Shown here: piece by piece, positions 3,783-28,148 of the stretch
Layout: every line of letters starts with the position of its first letter
How positions within the stretch are numbered: position 1 is the stretch's first letter
Assembly (NCBI GenBank): GCA_012838955.1
Contig: DUOH01000043.1
Span: 1-37,806, forward strand
Length of the DNA: 37,806 nucleotides
From: Bacillota bacterium
GTDB lineage: Bacteria > Bacillota > UBA4882 > UBA10575
Reading direction: 5' to 3'
Translations under genes and position numbers: made by a program
Notes under the pieces: generated by a model
Told to the model about the DNA's origin: nothing
Database searches by the model: none
Seen by the model: the letters and a program-made list of their open reading frames with translations, nothing else

Positions 3783-4577
3783 TTGAACCTGGCAGAATGG
3801 ACTGAACTACAATTCGTCTTTTATCTCTTGGTATACTCCAGAGTCTTCGGCCTCTTGCAAACCGCACCGGTCTTCCAGAATAAGGGTATCTCGGGGTTTC
3901 TCCGTTCCGGATTGGCGCTCTTTGTTTCGTTAGTGATCTTTCCGCCGCTGGCAAGCATGACAGATATTAGTCTGCCTAATATCGGAAGTTTTCTTCTGTT
4001 AGTCTGCGGAGAGTTAATCATCGGTTTGACTATTGGTTACATATTGAACCTGGCTTTTGCCGGAATACAGTTAGCCGGATCATTTATTGAGACACCGATG
4101 GGCTTAGGCATGGTTAATGTGATTGATCCGCAGTATGGAGGACAAATTCCCATTATTGGTCAGCTTTTTCAACTCATCGCCTTATGGCTGTTCTTGCTGG
4201 TCAACGCCCATCATTTACTCTTTGACTTTCTCTTGATGACCTATAGGCTACTGCCAGTCGGTGAAGTGCTCAATATCAGTAATGGCGCTACCATGATCCT
4301 GCAAGCCTTTAGCGGAATCTTCTGGCTCGGGCTGCAAATTGCCATTCCTATTATGGGAGTGCTTTTCCTGACCGACCTGGGCCTAGGGGTGCTGTCCAGG
4401 CTGATTCCGCAGATTAATGTGTTTGTGATCAGTTTTCCAGTAAAAATCTCCTTGGGACTGGTTCTGATTCTCCTTTCTTTACCGGTTTTTGTCAGGTGGC
4501 TGGCTCAGTTCTTTTCTTCCATCGGCAAATATTGGCCGGAGGCCGTCAGCATTATCAAGAGTCTGGCTGGCCCATAA
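3783..4577 (+). CDS. fliR: Flagellar export gate protein FliR
   Basis: FliR is the single-copy subunit of the FliP5Q4R1 export gate. The product is 264 residues, the normal length, and is almost entirely hydrophobic with about six membrane segments. Family-typical stretches include TAPVFQNKGISGFLRSGLA, SFIETPMGLGMVNVIDPQ and LGVLSRLIPQINVFVISFP. It begins with TTG, which aligns with the usual FliR N terminus and follows a GAGGTAAGTAAGG stretch that can serve as ribosome site. flhB follows after 83 bases. Confidence 0.95.
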   Translation: MNLAEWTELQFVFYLLVYSRVFGLLQTAPVFQNKGISGFLRSGLALFVSLVIFPPLASMTDISLPNIGSFLLLVCGELIIGLTIGYILNLAFAGIQLAGSFIETPMGLGMVNVIDPQYGGQIPIIGQLFQLIALWLFLLVNAHHLLFDFLLMTYRLLPVGEVLNISNGATMILQAFSGIFWLGLQIAIPIMGVLFLTDLGLGVLSRLIPQINVFVISFPVKISLGLVLILLSLPVFVRWLAQFFSSIGKYWPEAVSIIKSLAGP

Positions 4578-4660
4578 GGAACTTTGTCTGGTCTGAAAAT
4601 TAACCGGGATGTAATCGGGGTTATGGATCTGGCCGATGAAATGATGGGGAGCGAGTTACT

Positions 4661-5791
4661 GTGCTGGAAGTCAGGGAAGGGGAGAAGCTTTATATAGATT
4701 CTGCTTTTGATCTTCAATTCTTTGCGGATGAAGAAAAAACGGAAGAAGCAACGCCAAAGAAGAAGAGAGAAGCGAGGGAAAAAGGGCAGGTTCCCAAGAG
4801 TGTCGAATTAAGCACAGTGTGTACGCTGTTAGTTGGTGTTTTAGCACTTAATGCTTTTAGCAGTGGTTTTATCACCCGCCTTTATGAGTATATGAAATAT
4901 AGTTTTTCCACACGTGTCCTTAATTATAACCTGACGGATCTCGCGGTGCATAATATCTTTACCACCAATCTATTGTTTATTATAACTTGTTTTCTTCCAA
5001 TTGGGATCTTTGTTTTACTCGGCGGAGTGGCCGTGAATCTTCTCCAGACCGGTTGGCTCTTTACTACGGAGACCTTGAAGTTTAAGTTTGATAAACTCAA
5101 TCCGATTGCCGGATTCAAGCGGATTTTCTCACCAAAGAGTCTGGTGCAGTTAGTGAAGTCCGTCTTTAAATTGGTTATTGTGGGCTGGGTAATCATGGGG
5201 ACCTACCGTAAGCAAGCGCTGCCTTTGGCCGAGTTGTCTTTGCTCACCCCTTCGCTGCAAGCAGTCACCCGAATCTGGCGGATGATAATAAATATGATTA
5301 TCAGAATCTGCCTGATTCTGCTGGTCTTAGCGATATTTGATTACATGTACCAGCGCTATGAATACCGTCGTAGTCTGCGAATGACCAAAAAAGAAGTGAA
5401 AGAAGAATTTAAACAGGCGGAAGGGGACCCGCAAGTCAAGGGTAGAATCAAGCAGAAACAACGGCAGCTGGCGATGAGAAGAATGATGCAACAGGTGCCA
5501 AAAGCGGACGTGGTGATTACCAACCCGACCCACTTGGCCATCGCCCTTTTGTATGACGAAGAAAAAATGACCGCTCCCCAAGTATTGGCTAAAGGGGAAG
5601 GGTTCATAGCAAATAAAATAAAAGAACTGGCTAAGGAGAACCGAATTCCCGTGGTTGAGAATAAGCCGTTAGCCAGGATGATCTATAAAACGGTGGAAAT
5701 CGGTGATTTTATACCGCCTAATCTGTATCAAGCAGTGGCGGAAGTCTTGGCCTTTGTTTATAACCTACGCAAGAGGCGGAGTAGTGTTTAG
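4661..5791 (+). CDS. flhB: Flagellar export substrate-specificity switch FlhB
   Basis: FlhB is the membrane protein that switches the export apparatus from rod/hook to filament substrates after self-cleavage. The 376-residue product has the FlhB N-terminal signature EKTEEATPKKKREAREKGQV, four transmembrane segments and a cytoplasmic domain. The autocleavage motif NPTH is at residues 288-291, followed by the usual HLAIALLYDEEKMTAP stretch. All key residues are present, so it should be functional. The start is GTG at 4661 with GGGGAG about 8 bases upstream. The N terminus carries about 25 residues before EKTEEAT, longer than some homologues. Confidence 0.96.
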   Translation: MLEVREGEKLYIDSAFDLQFFADEEKTEEATPKKKREAREKGQVPKSVELSTVCTLLVGVLALNAFSSGFITRLYEYMKYSFSTRVLNYNLTDLAVHNIFTTNLLFIITCFLPIGIFVLLGGVAVNLLQTGWLFTTETLKFKFDKLNPIAGFKRIFSPKSLVQLVKSVFKLVIVGWVIMGTYRKQALPLAELSLLTPSLQAVTRIWRMIINMIIRICLILLVLAIFDYMYQRYEYRRSLRMTKKEVKEEFKQAEGDPQVKGRIKQKQRQLAMRRMMQQVPKADVVITNPTHLAIALLYDEEKMTAPQVLAKGEGFIANKIKELAKENRIPVVENKPLARMIYKTVEIGDFIPPNLYQAVAEVLAFVYNLRKRRSSV

Positions 5792-5874
5792 AACGATCAG
5801 TCGTCTGATCCGGCAGGAGATATCCCTGACCCGGAAGGGACGGCTACAGATCTGTAGTGGGAATTGGTGAAAAC

Positions 5875-7941
5875 ATGGCGCAAAATATAAGTCGAAGATC
5901 ATATCTATCCAGAATTGGCGGAAGCGGCGAATTGATCGCGGTGGGGATTATTATCATAATTTTAGGGATGTTCTTTATCCCCCTGCCTTCATTTATCTTA
6001 GATTTCTTCTTGTCGATTAATATTTCGCTCTCCTTTTTAATATTGTTATTAACCATGAATGTCCGCAAGACGCTGGAGTTTTCGGTCTTTCCTTCCTTGC
6101 TTTTGGTCACAACTCTTCTCCGGTTGGCCTTGAATGTCTCGTCCACCCGACTAATTCTGCTTCACGGTTATGCCGGACAGGTCATCCAAGCCTTCGGGGA
6201 TTTTGTAGCCGGAAGCAATCCGGTGGTTGGCTTTGTGATCTTTATTATCTTAACGATCATTAATTTCATGGTGATTACTAAAGGCTCGGAACGCGTAGCT
6301 GAAGTGGCGGCCAGATTTACCCTGGACGCCATGCCCGGTAAACAAATGAGTATTGACGCGGATTTGAATGCCGGGCTCATCAATGAAGAGCAAGCCCGGG
6401 CCAGAAGAAGAGAGATTGAAAGGGAAGCGGATTTTTATGGGGCGATGGACGGGGCCAGCAAATTCGTGAAGGGTGACGCCATTGCCGGGATTATCATTAC
6501 GATCATTAACTTACTCGGCGGACTGGCCATCGGTATCCTCCAAAGAGGACAGGATTTGGCAGGCGCGGCCCAAACTTACGCGCTCTTAACGGTTGGAGAC
6601 GGTCTGGTTTCACAGGTGCCGGCGTTGCTGATCTCCACCGCCACCGGTATCTTGGTGACCAGATCCGCTTCAGAGGATGACCTAGGTTCCGATCTCAGCA
6701 GACAGCTTACGTTTTATCCGAAAATTATTGCGCTGGGGTCCGGAGTCATCGCTCTCTTTGGTTTGGTCAGAGGTATGCCGACCATCCCATTCTTAATGGT
6801 CGCTATCGTCTTGGCAGTCTTGAGCCGCTATTTAATTAGAAAAGAGGAGAAAATGGCTGAGGTGGAAACAGAAGAGAAGGCAGCCACAGCGGAGTTGGAG
6901 ACACAACGTCCGGAGAATGTTTTAACCTTACTGACCGTAGATCCGATGGAACTGGAGATTGGCTACAGTCTGATTCCTTTGGTTGATAAATCCCAAGGTG
7001 GAGACTTGTTTGAACGGGTTAGTTTAATTCGGAGACAGGTTGCTTTGGAGCTGGGAATTATCTTGCCGCCCATCCGGATTAGAGATAATATGCAGCTTTC
7101 TCCCGGTCAATATCTGATCAAAATTAAAGGTGTTGACGTGGCGCAAGGAGAATTACTGACCAATTATTATCTGGCGATGGACGCCGGCGCCGTTACTGAA
7201 GAGATCGACGGAATTCCCACCAGAGAACCGGCTTTCGGTTTACCGGCCATCTGGATCACGGAAAAGCAAAGGGAAAAGGCGGAGCTTAACGGTTACACTG
7301 TGGTCGACGCTCCCTCGGTCCTGGTTACTCACCTTACTGAGATTATCCGGAACTATGCCCATGAATTACTGGGCAGACAAGAGACTCAGACCATGCTGGA
7401 TCATATTAAAGAAGATTACCCAGTGGTCGTGGAAGAGCTGATTCCGAACTTGATGTCCGTCGGAGAGGTGCAAAAGGTCTTAGCACAACTTCTAAAAGAG
7501 GGTATTCCCATCAGAAATCTGGTTTCGATCCTGGAAACACTGGCAGATTATGCCCCGATGACCAAAGACACCGGGTTGCTCACTGAGTATGTGCGGGCGA
7601 CTTTAGCCCGGCAGATTACGAAATTACTGGTGGGCGAGGAAAATATCTTATACGTCTTGACGGTGGCGCCAAAAATCGAACAAAGAATTCAGCAAGCGCA
7701 GAACGAAGGTCAACCCCTGGAACCCGCCTGGATCAACCAGTTTGACCAATCTTTGAGCAAGGAAGTTAAGAAGGTGATGGAAAACGGATATAATCCGGTG
7801 ATCATGGTTTCGCCGGCGATTAGGAGATTTACCAAGAGTTTGGTGGAAAGACTCTATCCGAAAATTCCCGTTGTATCCTTTCAGGAGATCACCTCGGAGA
7901 CTGATGTTCACTCATTAGGAATGGTAGGTGCAGGAGATTGA
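5875..7941 (+). CDS. flhA: Flagellar export protein FlhA
   Basis: FlhA is the large export-gate protein that forms a nonameric ring and docks export chaperones. About 688 residues are predicted. The N-terminal half has about eight transmembrane segments. The conserved cytoplasmic FHIPEP-family loop is seen in ARRREIEREADFYGAMDGA. The C-terminal domain carries LGIILPPIRIRDN and GLPAIWI. An alternative GTG start exists 18 bases upstream, but the ATG at 5875 has a GGTGA ribosome-like site at good spacing. It overlaps flhF by 4 bases (TTGA). Confidence 0.96.
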   Translation: MAQNISRRSYLSRIGGSGELIAVGIIIIILGMFFIPLPSFILDFFLSINISLSFLILLLTMNVRKTLEFSVFPSLLLVTTLLRLALNVSSTRLILLHGYAGQVIQAFGDFVAGSNPVVGFVIFIILTIINFMVITKGSERVAEVAARFTLDAMPGKQMSIDADLNAGLINEEQARARRREIEREADFYGAMDGASKFVKGDAIAGIIITIINLLGGLAIGILQRGQDLAGAAQTYALLTVGDGLVSQVPALLISTATGILVTRSASEDDLGSDLSRQLTFYPKIIALGSGVIALFGLVRGMPTIPFLMVAIVLAVLSRYLIRKEEKMAEVETEEKAATAELETQRPENVLTLLTVDPMELEIGYSLIPLVDKSQGGDLFERVSLIRRQVALELGIILPPIRIRDNMQLSPGQYLIKIKGVDVAQGELLTNYYLAMDAGAVTEEIDGIPTREPAFGLPAIWITEKQREKAELNGYTVVDAPSVLVTHLTEIIRNYAHELLGRQETQTMLDHIKEDYPVVVEELIPNLMSVGEVQKVLAQLLKEGIPIRNLVSILETLADYAPMTKDTGLLTEYVRATLARQITKLLVGEENILYVLTVAPKIEQRIQQAQNEGQPLEPAWINQFDQSLSKEVKKVMENGYNPVIMVSPAIRRFTKSLVERLYPKIPVVSFQEITSETDVHSLGMVGAGD

Positions 7942-24482: not shown

Positions 24483-25058
24483 ATGACAATTTACCGTCGG
24501 CATCTCCCTTACATAATCGGAGTAATTATCGGATTAATCATCGTTTTTGCCATAGGTTTCTTTTATTCAGCTTCTGATTTTCCGCTGAAGAGAGGAGACC
24601 GTGTCCAGAAAGGGGGTCCGATCGCGCCAGAAGAAGCGCGCGCGCAAGAGCAAATACAGGTCCGTGTCATCGACTATTACCGCAGGTGCCACCATAATAC
24701 GGTAAAAGTTCTCACCATCCGGGAAGAAGATTATCACAGCTTTCTCTCGGAGTTAACCTGTGACTGGGAAGCCAGAGGAGTCGCGGAAGAAAGGATTCTT
24801 ACCAAGAGACTGAACACACTCTGTGAGAATTGTCAGCATCAAGAGCATTTGGGGATTTACCAAGATTATGTGGCGGTTTATCATGGAACCCCGGATTGCC
24901 CGGGTCCGGTTAAGGAAGTGACCGGGATTAGGGTAACGGGGTTGCCTGAAAATGAAGTGTTGGACTTAAAAACCGGAGTCCCCTATCGGGAGACAGAAGA
25001 AAAACTACTTATCCTCGAGGGTTATTCGGAATTGGCTGTGGAGAATCGCGGACGCTAA
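24483..25058 (+). CDS. BofC-like (BofC C-terminal domain) membrane-anchored protein
   Basis: The 191-residue product has one N-terminal transmembrane helix (residues 8-28, YIIGVIIGLIIVFAIGFFY) and a domain outside the cytoplasm. The C-terminal 65 residues (from about HLGIYQDYVAVYHG through VKEVTGIRVTGLPENEV and LLILEGYSE) match the BofC C-terminal domain pattern. In Bacillus, BofC is a forespore-exported inhibitor of the SpoIVB protease in the sigma-K checkpoint. Five cysteines are present, two of them in a CENC pair; disulfides are possible. The middle region is not recognisable. Position after yebC supports the call. A strong TTGGAGGGG site precedes the ATG. Confidence 0.75.
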   Translation: MTIYRRHLPYIIGVIIGLIIVFAIGFFYSASDFPLKRGDRVQKGGPIAPEEARAQEQIQVRVIDYYRRCHHNTVKVLTIREEDYHSFLSELTCDWEARGVAEERILTKRLNTLCENCQHQEHLGIYQDYVAVYHGTPDCPGPVKEVTGIRVTGLPENEVLDLKTGVPYRETEEKLLILEGYSELAVENRGR

Positions 25059-25087: not shown

Positions 25088-25176
25088 ACTCGTCCAGACC
25101 TACTGTCTCATCACTTTACCTCATCGTCACTCGTCCAGACCCACTACCTGATCACTCACTACCTCATCGTCTGGAC
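25088..25176 (+). repeat. Two imperfect 41-bp tandem repeats closed by an inverted repeat
   Basis: ACTCGTCCAGACC begins a unit at 25088, and the unit recurs with about 41-bp period at 25129 (ACTCGTCCAGACCC). Both end in ACCTCATCGTC. GTCCAGAC (25092-25099 and 25133-25140) can pair with GTCTGGAC at 25169-25176. With two copies only, this is not a CRISPR array. It abuts the structured region 25,196-25,632. Confidence 0.7.
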
Positions 25177-25195
25177 AGAGGGGGAGCGTAAATAT

Positions 25196-25640
25196 TTCTA
25201 GGGGGTGATCAGCCCCCTAGAAGATCAAAGCAGGAAACAGCCGTGCTTTGACCACAACGGGCCGTGATCCCGACCTGCGTGCCGGCTAAGAGAGATTCCT
25301 ACCGGACCGACTACTGCAGCTATCGATCCTTCGCTGTAGTTATTTCAGAACCTCTCATAACCTTTACCCGAACCATAGACCTCCCTTTTTGCACTGGATG
25401 GAATACTGACAGTACGCAAGAGAAGCATAAAGCTCTTGACTCAGCTCCAGTGACTCATCTACACAACACAACCTCTGTCGCATCCCATAGACAAATCAGT
25501 GGAACCTTCGCTCCGGCCGAGTTCGATATGGATAAACTTACACCATATCCACCTCGACCTTTGCCCGACCTCCTCCAGCCGGTGGTAAACTACAGCTTTA
25601 CCAGGGACCAGATTCAGTCTTCGTTCAGCCGGGTCACTTG
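25196..25640 (-). ncRNA. Candidate large structured non-coding RNA (minus strand)
   Basis: No convincing gene lies here, but nested helices are abundant. A long-range helix (25282-25289 with 25625-25632) closes a multibranch loop. Inside are hairpins 25290-25356 (with inner 25310-25340), 25392-25452 (inner 25411-25441), 25515-25559 (two helices of 7 bp each) and 25583-25603. On its 3' side (minus strand) lie hairpins 25225-25251 and 25196-25222, the latter with a 10-bp G/C-rich stem. In three helices the only non-Watson-Crick pair is an A-C mismatch on the plus strand and a G-U pair on the minus strand, so a minus-strand RNA is favoured. No clear promoter was found. I could not match it to tmRNA, RNase P, SRP or 6S RNA. 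OLE RNA is an untested alternative. Confidence 0.6.
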
Positions 25641-25869
25641 CCTTCTTTATGTTAACCAAATTTTTGAGACCTAAACGCATTATTACTAGAAATTTTTAGC
25701 AAACTATCACTATAGATATGGGATTCTCCTGTATATAGGTGTGGTCTAATAAGGACCTGGTAAGAAATAGAAGGGTTTCGCCTCGGAAAGAGGTTTAAAA
25801 AAAGATTGGCCTAGGGAGGAAAACAATAAAGACAGTAGAATAATTATTAAATGTTACTTAATGGTTTAG
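25641..25869. other. Intergenic stretch without recognisable gene
   Basis: AT-rich sequence between the minus-strand RNA candidate and the plus-strand leader structure. Any promoters for both would be expected here, but no well-spaced -35/-10 pair was found on either strand. A GGGAGGAAAAC stretch near 25814 resembles a ribosome site but no open frame follows. Confidence 0.5.
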
Positions 25870-25870
25870 G

Positions 25871-26020
25871 AAGCGTTGTAAAATGGTTAAATTTTAGGCT
25901 CCTGCCTGAACAGGCGGGAGCAAGCGACGGGTTTCGCGCGCGGACGCGGGCATCTGCAGAAGAGTTGAAAGCTTCTACAACCGCTTACTCTTACTGCCAG
26001 GCCTTCGGAGTCTGGAACAG
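25871..26020 (+). promoter_or_regulatory. Structured 5' leader upstream of the EF-G-like gene
   Basis: AAGCGTTGTA (25871-25880) can pair with TACAACCGCTT (25976-25986) with one bulged C, closing a domain. Inside, GCTCCTGCCT and AGGCGGGAGC (about 25898-25921) form a 10-bp hairpin with a GAAC tetraloop. Its one non-Watson-Crick pair is U-G on the plus strand, pointing to plus-strand transcription. After the domain, CCAGGC and GTCTGG (about 25997-26015) form another hairpin, again with a plus-strand G-U pair. It lies about 75 bases before the EF-G-like start, as a riboswitch or autoregulatory leader would. No known riboswitch core was recognised. Confidence 0.5.
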
Positions 26021-26093: not shown

Positions 26094-28148
26094 GTGAAGA
26101 ATTACAGTTCCAATCAGTTAAGAAACCTTGTTTTAGTCGGGCATGGTGGGTGCGGTAAAACCATGTTGGCCGATGCGATGCTTTTTACGGCAAAAGCTAC
26201 TGACCGTTTGGGAAAGGTTGATGAAGGCACTTCCGTGTTGGATTATGATCCTGAGGAGACCAAAAGAAAAATTTCAATAAATACGGTAGTAGCGCCTTGT
26301 GAGTACAATTCTTGTAAAATCAATATCCTGGATACCCCCGGGTTCTTCGACTTTATCGGCGAAGTAAAAAGCGCGGTAAAAGTAGCTGATACCGGTGTGA
26401 TTGTCGCCTGTGCAGTCAGCGGCGTAGAGGTTGGCACCGAGAAAGGCTGGCGTTTCTTGGAGGAGAATGATGTAGCCAGAGTCTTCTATATCAACAAAAT
26501 GGACCGGGAAAATGCAAATTTCCGTAAAGTTTTAGCTGCTTTACAAGATAAATTCGGATCACGGGTGGTCCCTGTTTATCTGCCAATCGGCGAAGCGGAA
26601 AACTTTCAAGGAATTGTGGATCTGATTAGAGGAAAAGCTTATATTAACGGTAAAGAAGGAGAAATCCCCGCTGAGTTGGAGAGTGAGGCTAAGGAGTACT
26701 ATCATCAGTTGGTGGAAGCAGCCGCTGAAGCAGACGATGACCTGTTAGGCAAATATCTGGAGGGAGAAGAATTAACTCCTGCGGAGGTCATGACGGGTTT
26801 TAAAAAAGGCATAGCCGCTCGACTGATTTTTCCGGTATTTTGTGGTTCCGCGTTACAGAATAAAGGTATTGACCGATTTTTATTGGATATCACGGAGTTC
26901 TTCCCGTCTCCGCTGGACGTTGAGGCTATTAAAGTCCGCAAAGGATTAAGCGATGAAGAAACAGAATTGTCTCCGGGGGCCGATGGCGCCACAGCTGCGT
27001 TGGTCTTTAAGACCATGGCCGACCCGTTTGTCGGAAAACTAACTCTCTTTCGGGTCTATTCCGGTGTGTTGAAATCCGACTCCCATATCTGGAACGTCAC
27101 CCGGAATCAAGACGAGAGAGTAGGGCAACTTTTTGTCATAAAAGGAAAGAACCAAGAACCTGTCTCCCAAATCACCGCCGGAGATATCGGCGCCGTGGCG
27201 AAACTGCAGTACACCGAGACCGGAGATACACTCTGCCTCAAGGAAAACCAGGTTATAATCCCTCCCATCGACTTCCCCCAGCCTAAACTTTCCATGGCCG
27301 TTGTGCCTAAAGGCAAAGGAGATGAGGAGAAGATCGGATCCGGCTTGGCCAGGTTAAGGGAGGAGGATCCTTCGATTAAAGTAGAGAAGGATACCACTAC
27401 CCACGAATTAATCCTCTCCGGCTTGGGTGACCTTCATCTGGAAGTGATCACCAGCAAACTACAGAAAAAATTCGGTGTAGAGGTGGAATTAAAGACACCG
27501 AAGGTTCCTTATAAAGAAACGATTAAGGGAACGGTAAAGGTAGAGGGCAAGCATAAGAAGCAATCCGGGGGCCGCGGTCAATATGGCCATGTTTGGCTGG
27601 AGCTTGAACCTTTACCAACTGGGAACGGCTTTGAATTTGTGGACAAAATTTTCGGCGGCGCCGTTCCAAAACAATATATTCCTGCTGTGGAAAAAGGACT
27701 ACGGGAGACAATGGAAGAAGGCATTCTGGCCGGGTATCCTGTGGTGGATATACGCGCGACTTTATATGATGGTTCCTACCATAGCGTAGACTCCTCTGAA
27801 ATGGCCTTTAAAATCGCCGCCTCCATGGCCTTGAAAAAAGGGTTTATGGACGCTAAGCCCATTCTGTTGGAACCTGTGATGCTGATTGAAGTGACCGTGC
27901 CTGAAGAATTCATGGGTGATATCATGGGAGACTTGAATAAGAAGCGAGGCCGGATCCTCGGGATGGAACCCCAGGACGGTATGCAGATTATTCGGGCTCA
28001 TGTTCCTTTGGCCGAGGTTTTCCAGTACTCAATTGACCTGCGTTCCATGACCCAAGGGCGGGGTGATTTTACTTTAACCTTTGACCACTACGAAGAAGTT
28101 CCGGGTAATATTGCCGAAGAGGTAATCGCCGCTGCAAAAGCCGAATAG
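26094..28148 (+). CDS. Elongation factor G paralogue (EF-G-2-like GTPase)
   Basis: This 684-residue translational GTPase has EF-G domain order: a G domain (P-loop GHGGCGKT at 16-23, DTPG at 80-83, NKMD at 134-137), domain II, then domains III-V (GKHKKQSGGRGQYGHVWLEL, RGRILGME, and a C-terminal DLRSMTQGRGDFTLTFDHYE). The canonical His after DTPG, which helps GTP hydrolysis, is replaced by Phe 84. The P-loop also differs from the AHIDAGKT of housekeeping EF-G. Both features suggest the EF-G-2 paralogue group, not the main translocase. It stands alone rather than in the str operon. GTG start with AGGAGGG 6 bases upstream. Role under stress or special conditions is inference. Confidence 0.88.
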   Translation: MKNYSSNQLRNLVLVGHGGCGKTMLADAMLFTAKATDRLGKVDEGTSVLDYDPEETKRKISINTVVAPCEYNSCKINILDTPGFFDFIGEVKSAVKVADTGVIVACAVSGVEVGTEKGWRFLEENDVARVFYINKMDRENANFRKVLAALQDKFGSRVVPVYLPIGEAENFQGIVDLIRGKAYINGKEGEIPAELESEAKEYYHQLVEAAAEADDDLLGKYLEGEELTPAEVMTGFKKGIAARLIFPVFCGSALQNKGIDRFLLDITEFFPSPLDVEAIKVRKGLSDEETELSPGADGATAALVFKTMADPFVGKLTLFRVYSGVLKSDSHIWNVTRNQDERVGQLFVIKGKNQEPVSQITAGDIGAVAKLQYTETGDTLCLKENQVIIPPIDFPQPKLSMAVVPKGKGDEEKIGSGLARLREEDPSIKVEKDTTTHELILSGLGDLHLEVITSKLQKKFGVEVELKTPKVPYKETIKGTVKVEGKHKKQSGGRGQYGHVWLELEPLPTGNGFEFVDKIFGGAVPKQYIPAVEKGLRETMEEGILAGYPVVDIRATLYDGSYHSVDSSEMAFKIAASMALKKGFMDAKPILLEPVMLIEVTVPEEFMGDIMGDLNKKRGRILGMEPQDGMQIIRAHVPLAEVFQYSIDLRSMTQGRGDFTLTFDHYEEVPGNIAEEVIAAAKAE

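Follow-up and report, generated by a model that had tools for sequence, protein, structure and literature searches.

The window, by which we mean the whole stretch of DNA that was analysed (37,806 nt, forward strand of contig DUOH01000043.1, assembly GCA_012838955.1, Bacillota bacterium), contains bofC and a fusA-like EF-G gene, fusA2. The gap between these genes amounts to 1035 nt, which is unusually long for a single copy of the RNA described here, and no credible gene was found in it. A preliminary description had reported a gene-free stretch with strong minus-strand structure at 25196-25640, and both observations were borne out: the minus strand of 25180-25680 has a folding energy of -196.9 kcal/mol and a z-score of -5.8 (0/100 shuffles were as good), compared to only -1.9 for the plus strand. 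The structured RNA lies on the minus strand of 25197-25676, is present in a single copy and has a six-way junction in its own minimum-energy fold (Table 1).

Table 1 Features of the bofC-fusA2 locus and parts of the six-armed RNA in the window.
Feature	Position	Strand	Sequence or remark
bofC	24483-25058		Pfam BofC_C domain
Terminator hairpin	25197-25221	-	TCTAGGGGGCTGATCACCCCCTAGA, then A/T-rich stretch
Extra hairpin 3' of P1	25223-25253	-	GGTCAAAGCACGG...CTGCTTTGATC
Closing helix P1, 3' strand	25260-25275	-	GGTCGGGATCACGGCC
Linker gamma2	25276-25283	-	GGCACGCA
Arm H5	25284-25362	-	
Linker beta2	25363-25369	-	GGGTAAA
Arm H4	25370-25435	-	
Linker alpha2	25436-25442	-	GAGTCAA
Arm H3	25443-25506	-	
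Linker gamma1	25507-25514	-	GGAGCGAA
Arm H2	25515-25559	-	GGU...GCC with U.G third pair
Linker beta1	25560-25566	-	GGGCAAA
Arm H1	25567-25619	-	
Linker alpha1	25620-25626	-	GAACGAA
Closing helix P1, 5' strand	25627-25642	-	GGCAAGTGACCCGGCT; pairs with 25260-25275
Promoter -10 element	25648-25657	-	GGTTAACATA; sigma-F/sigma-G type, one mismatch
Promoter -35 element	25672-25676	-	GTTTA; forespore type
fusA2	26094-28148		fusA-like EF-G gene

The predicted transcript is longer than the interval first proposed, with a promoter that extends to 25676 and a terminator hairpin at 25197-25221. The 8-bp long-range helix of the preliminary description (25282-25289 with 25625-25632) is not the conserved pairing and is replaced by P1, which encloses five arms and not a loop holding four hairpins; 25284-25289 are part of the 3' arm of H5 and 25620-25626 form a junction linker. 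The strand had been deduced from positions that read A-C on the plus strand but G-U on the minus strand, an argument that was right in kind: 25517/25557 is the third pair of H2. Position 25295/25352 lies inside arm H5, and 25288/25626 is not a conserved pairing. The RNA itself had been recognised, but its forespore promoter, its six-way architecture and its phylum-wide distribution had been missed. The extra hairpin 3' of P1 was not seen in the aligned relatives, which have a GC-rich hairpin and a T-run at the position of the terminator.

Pieces of the RNA were found by BLASTN in 14/15 other genomes of the window's family (f1), and a covariance model of its 5' domain (R1) matched all 15 of them, giving 16/16 with the window genome. 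R1 also matched a genome of a second family of the same order (G016) and one of another family of the same class (G018); matches in family f5 were weak. In family f1 every contig that covers the bofC-fusA2 gap has the RNA in it, and the RNA converges with bofC and diverges from fusA2. When 84,980 species were scanned with a degenerate pattern of one conserved unit, the family was retrieved together with intact RNAs in other Bacillota (L114, L116/L120, L119, L128, L129, L132 and L133, with L119 and L128 being two loci of one genome). Matches of this pattern in Pseudomonadota, Bacteroidota, other groups and one viral contig lie inside coding genes, look like chance and were rejected. At L128, a CRISPR-like repeat array is located downstream of the RNA (about 4400-6960).

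For a wider search, 398 genomes were sampled evenly across the phylum. A second covariance model (R2), built on the beta-H2-gamma unit, matched 150 of them (about 38%) in 109/266 genera, mostly at unrelated loci; since R2 misses diverged copies such as those of f5, this distribution is a lower bound. From R2-positive genomes, 79 loci were extracted. The sporulation gene spoIIR was present in 332/398 genomes, in 144/150 with the RNA versus 188/248 without a match, an association with an odds ratio of 7.7 and a Fisher p of 2e-8 (two lists compared by hand), where the p-value is too small because related genomes are not independent. Of the six RNA-bearing genomes without spoIIR, G303 is 61% complete and G003 is closely related to genomes that have the gene. 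Among the genomes with spoIIR, more than half had no R2 match. Many spore formers thus lack the RNA or have a copy that is too diverged to be recognised, which means that it cannot be essential to sporulation generally.

The RNAs follow the plan P1, alpha1, H1, beta1, H2, gamma1, H3, alpha2, H4, beta2, H5, gamma2, P1, in which six helices are separated by six near-identical linkers of 7, 7, 8, 7, 7 and 8 nt, all variants of GRGCNAA. The window copy has six such linkers with this spacing and six arms closed by P1, which is the definition of the class. The size is about 400 nt, with homologues of 300-460 nt and a minimal version of about 230 nt in G018 in which none of the six linkers and arms is missing. 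Conservation is highest in the unpaired linkers that surround the junction, several positions of which vary between lineages (GAGCUAA, GGCCAAA, GGCGGGAA and others). Arm lengths are nearly fixed and arm sequences variable: the median is about 36-37 nt for H1, 36 nt for H2, 75 nt for H3, 94 nt for H4 (74-135 in most) and 74 nt for H5, the latter being exactly 74 nt in 37/56 RNAs. The hairpin loop of H5 is a GNRA loop in 43/58, mostly GAAA, and H4 often carries GAGA. At a distance of 11-15 bp from the junction, the arms tend to contain a GGNUC/GGNUC element; depending on the arm, both strands have it in 14 to 36 of the 56 RNAs. Helices after beta and gamma linkers mostly start with GGU/GCC, whose third pair is U.G (27/27 RNAs in H3 and H5, 24/27 in P1, 19/27 in H2), and helices after alpha linkers mostly start with GA/UC. 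Strict geometry is not required everywhere, since the arms of family f1 no longer have the fixed lengths although its junction is kept, and f5, at the same fusA2 locus, has a recognisable junction only in its first half (the first linkers).

A first sign of an internal repeat was that the 3' half of the same RNAs was also matched by R1; 48 of 60 loci searched again with R2 gave two matches, mostly 200-300 nt apart. A circular permutation of two half-molecules was considered and dropped, although linker types swap order between lineages, because the arm-length pattern follows the position from the 5' end and not the linker type.

Conservation and covariation among homologues, on which the preliminary description had made its RNA depend, were clearly present. 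A family alignment analysed with RNAalifold revealed covarying helices and highly conserved unpaired blocks, and in 27 RNAs the matching arms paired better than wrong combinations of arms. With one RNA from each of nine lineages, arm positions 4-7 were paired in 92% versus 58% with shuffled partners (0/5000 shuffles). Since these positions had helped to choose the anchors, the test was repeated on new material. A junction finder without linker constraints scored shuffled controls equally high and was rejected; therefore, the linkers were added. This linker-aware finder was run on 78 loci of the phylum and 234 shuffled controls; it found a solution in 61/78 loci, and 56/78 had a score of at least 127, compared to 112 for the best control. 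Arm positions 8-12, which are not scored by the finder, were paired in 94% in these 56 RNAs versus 67% on average and 69% at most in shuffles, which do not model relatedness; the nine-lineage test agrees in direction. The choice of anchors can therefore not explain the pairing. Moreover, 78 of 96 junction-proximal arm positions covary in the 56 RNAs, i.e. they are paired in at least 75% with pair types differing on both sides. The number of branches in minimum-energy folds was uninformative as a test because the selection rule favoured six.

Two patterns, GHWTA-N14-16-GGNNANAHTR and GHATR-N16-18-CATNHTA, were searched for upstream of the RNAs, allowing one mismatch at most; we take them to be the forespore sigma-F/sigma-G consensus. 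The elements of the two sigma factors are alike and conserved between B. subtilis and C. difficile (PMC3789822, PMC7438776), and the consensus cannot separate sigma-F from sigma-G. A forespore-type promoter was found upstream of the RNA in 67/73 cases (null mean 5.3, maximum 9), with 28 perfect matches compared to 0.2 in the null, and nearly all homologues have 20-27 nt between the end of its -10 element and linker alpha1; in the window, GTTTA-N14-GGTTAACATA ends 21 nt before this linker. The search was calibrated with the alpha/beta SASP genes, classic forespore genes, of 16 genomes of the family: 19/30 had such a promoter with at most one mismatch (null 3.3) and 12/30 a perfect one (null 0.15), and in one genus (g4) a SASP gene and its RNA have the -35 element GATTA in common. 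SpoIIR had also been tried for calibration but had no such promoter directly upstream, perhaps because it is part of an operon, and the SASP genes were used instead. With a forespore-type promoter at a fixed distance, the RNA groups with the forespore (sigma-F/sigma-G) non-coding RNAs and is predicted from this promoter to be produced within the developing spore. In f5, few linker motifs occur in a further diverged stretch of the fusA2 locus (L077, L082, L087, L090, L092), which has a sigma-G-like promoter (GHATA-N17-CATAATA or a close match); this family may keep a forespore RNA there while the sequence changes.

The preliminary description had read the minus strand as a large, multibranched RNA not described before, which recalls OLE but could not be matched to a known family, and this reading is supported: at gathering thresholds, no Rfam 15 family matched the RNA in the window or in 21 homologous loci, and permissive searches (E<=10, E<=5) gave nothing but matches at chance level, far below the gathering scores. 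Matches with gathering scores at these loci lie outside the RNA (rRNA, tRNA, RNase P, riboswitches, T-box, intron), and no covariance model of OLE, ROOL, GOLLD, raiA or another Rfam 15 family matched it. An earlier description of the six-armed RNA was not found in the open-access literature; an account in a closed journal or preprint is conceivable. In sum, it is very probably a new RNA class with a forespore promoter. OLE, ROOL and GOLLD, ornate large non-coding RNAs solved by cryo-EM (PMC12286853), are likewise large, free-standing and highly structured with multi-way junctions, and the near-fixed geometry of the six-armed RNA suggests that it may form a defined three-dimensional particle; it differs from them in junction, size, hosts, promoter and in having no Rfam match. 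The raiA motif RNA (ModT in C. difficile, PMC11706538) is also a widespread structured non-coding RNA of spore-forming Bacillota, for which sporulation defects are reported in a study cited by PMC12286853, but it is about 205 nt long (PMC12286853) and has another fold, and the six-armed RNA has no match in Rfam.

The ylbH leader motif is presumably an Rfam family, and no match to this ylbH/csfG element was found on either strand. CsfG of B. subtilis, encoded on the reverse strand of that motif (PMC3574147), is a forespore non-coding RNA under sigma-F and sigma-G that has been described as conserved among endospore formers (PMC3574147, PMC9147052). Identity with CsfG was rejected since Rfam element, size, locus and conserved sequence differ: CsfG is smaller, with CU-rich conserved stretches, and lies at ylbG-ylbH, whereas the six-armed RNA has 300-460 nt and purine-rich linkers and lies at bofC-fusA2 in the window and at different loci again elsewhere. 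Bvs196 of Bacillus velezensis is a forespore-specific non-coding RNA of 294 nt with a stable structure under sigma-F/sigma-G (PMC9147052); it was reported from Bacillus at hinT-ecsA, and the six-armed RNA is set apart from it by description only. A forespore sRNA that acts on mRNAs by base pairing, like these two, would have the same compartment and sigma factors (PMC9147052; promoter). This function is quite unlikely for the six-armed RNA, since the molecule is almost wholly paired, its single-stranded parts are short purine-rich linkers inside the junction, and arm sequences turn over while lengths stay, the reverse of what is expected of seed pairing.

In search for a conserved partner gene, 794 neighbour proteins were clustered, but no family common to many lineages was found except for one large cluster of apparently generic ABC ATPases. 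One bofC-fusA2 locus is kept in the window's class and in other families the RNA adjoins unrelated genes. Because no neighbour family other than these ATPases is shared outside the window's class, action of the RNA in trans is most likely. Tuning of bofC or fusA2 by a cis-acting element or antisense transcript would suit the position between convergent bofC and divergent fusA2 in the window's class, but the same structure stands beside unrelated genes in other families and has a promoter-like sequence of its own, which makes this explanation very improbable; the varied loci nearly exclude a role in cis. Copy number varies as well, with tandem copies in G004 (L023, 9685-10705) and at the G233 locus (L193); G171 (Bacillota bacterium Ch109; L169, L170) and G066 carry the RNA at two loci each. 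This variation and the different loci between lineages are what a mobile or repetitive element without host function would show, yet one locus is kept across the window's class, covariation is strong, the promoter is a developmental one of the host, and a protein gene belonging to the element itself was not found among the neighbours, so that such an element is a very improbable explanation. In four genomes, each from a different family, an RNase P RNA gene is located within about 5 kb of the RNA (L174, L177, L191 and L214), which exceeds the chance expectation.

Since arm number, arm length, junction and tetraloops are kept while arm sequences drift, selection appears to act on the shape of the RNA, and its promoter points to the forespore. 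We propose that the class is a free-standing, trans-acting structural RNA of endospore formers. It would be transcribed in the forespore by RNA polymerase with sigma-F and/or sigma-G, up to an intrinsic terminator, and the transcript would fold into a compact particle in which six arms, whose lengths are nearly fixed in most lineages, radiate from a ring made of the six near-identical linkers. In the developing spore, it would serve as a rigid scaffold on which a ribonucleoprotein or homo-oligomer assembles, and hold something needed for maturation, dormancy or outgrowth; this trans-acting scaffold is the function that we cautiously favour. The conserved linker ring could instead be the active or binding site of a ribozyme or ligand-binding RNA of the spore, for which unpaired linkers would be expected to be the most conserved parts, but they vary by lineage (GAGCUAA, GGCCAAA, GGCGGGAA), six similar copies suit an architectural role better than one active site, and no substrate or processing site is apparent; we consider such an activity unlikely. 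Extending the scaffold model, a phylum-wide RNA particle of endospores with six arms of near-fixed length and tetraloop tips that assembles alone or with spore proteins into a defined structure in the forespore is a tentative idea which, if true, would add an RNA component of the spore described by nobody so far. Few large ornate RNAs are known from bacteria, and the study of each has so far raised new questions. The present one occurs in about 38% of the sampled genomes of the phylum, with a precise architecture under strong selection, and its developmental promoter indicates where and when to look for it. The forespore is regarded as a well-charted compartment, and the prediction of a new RNA particle in it can be tested directly in any culturable carrier.

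Three further elements were noted in the gap of the window. Direct repeats around TCGTCCAGACC...CTACCTCATCG lie between bofC and the RNA terminator (25089-25178); they were not seen in the bofC-fusA2 gaps of relatives. The fusA2 leader contains a GC-rich hairpin and a CG-rich stretch (25890-25960). Upstream of fusA2, on the plus strand of 25817-25841, AGGAAAA-N14-GAAT, which is conserved in the family as AGGAAAT...GAAT, looks like a sigma-H promoter and, therefore, the EF-G paralogue may be induced early in sporulation.
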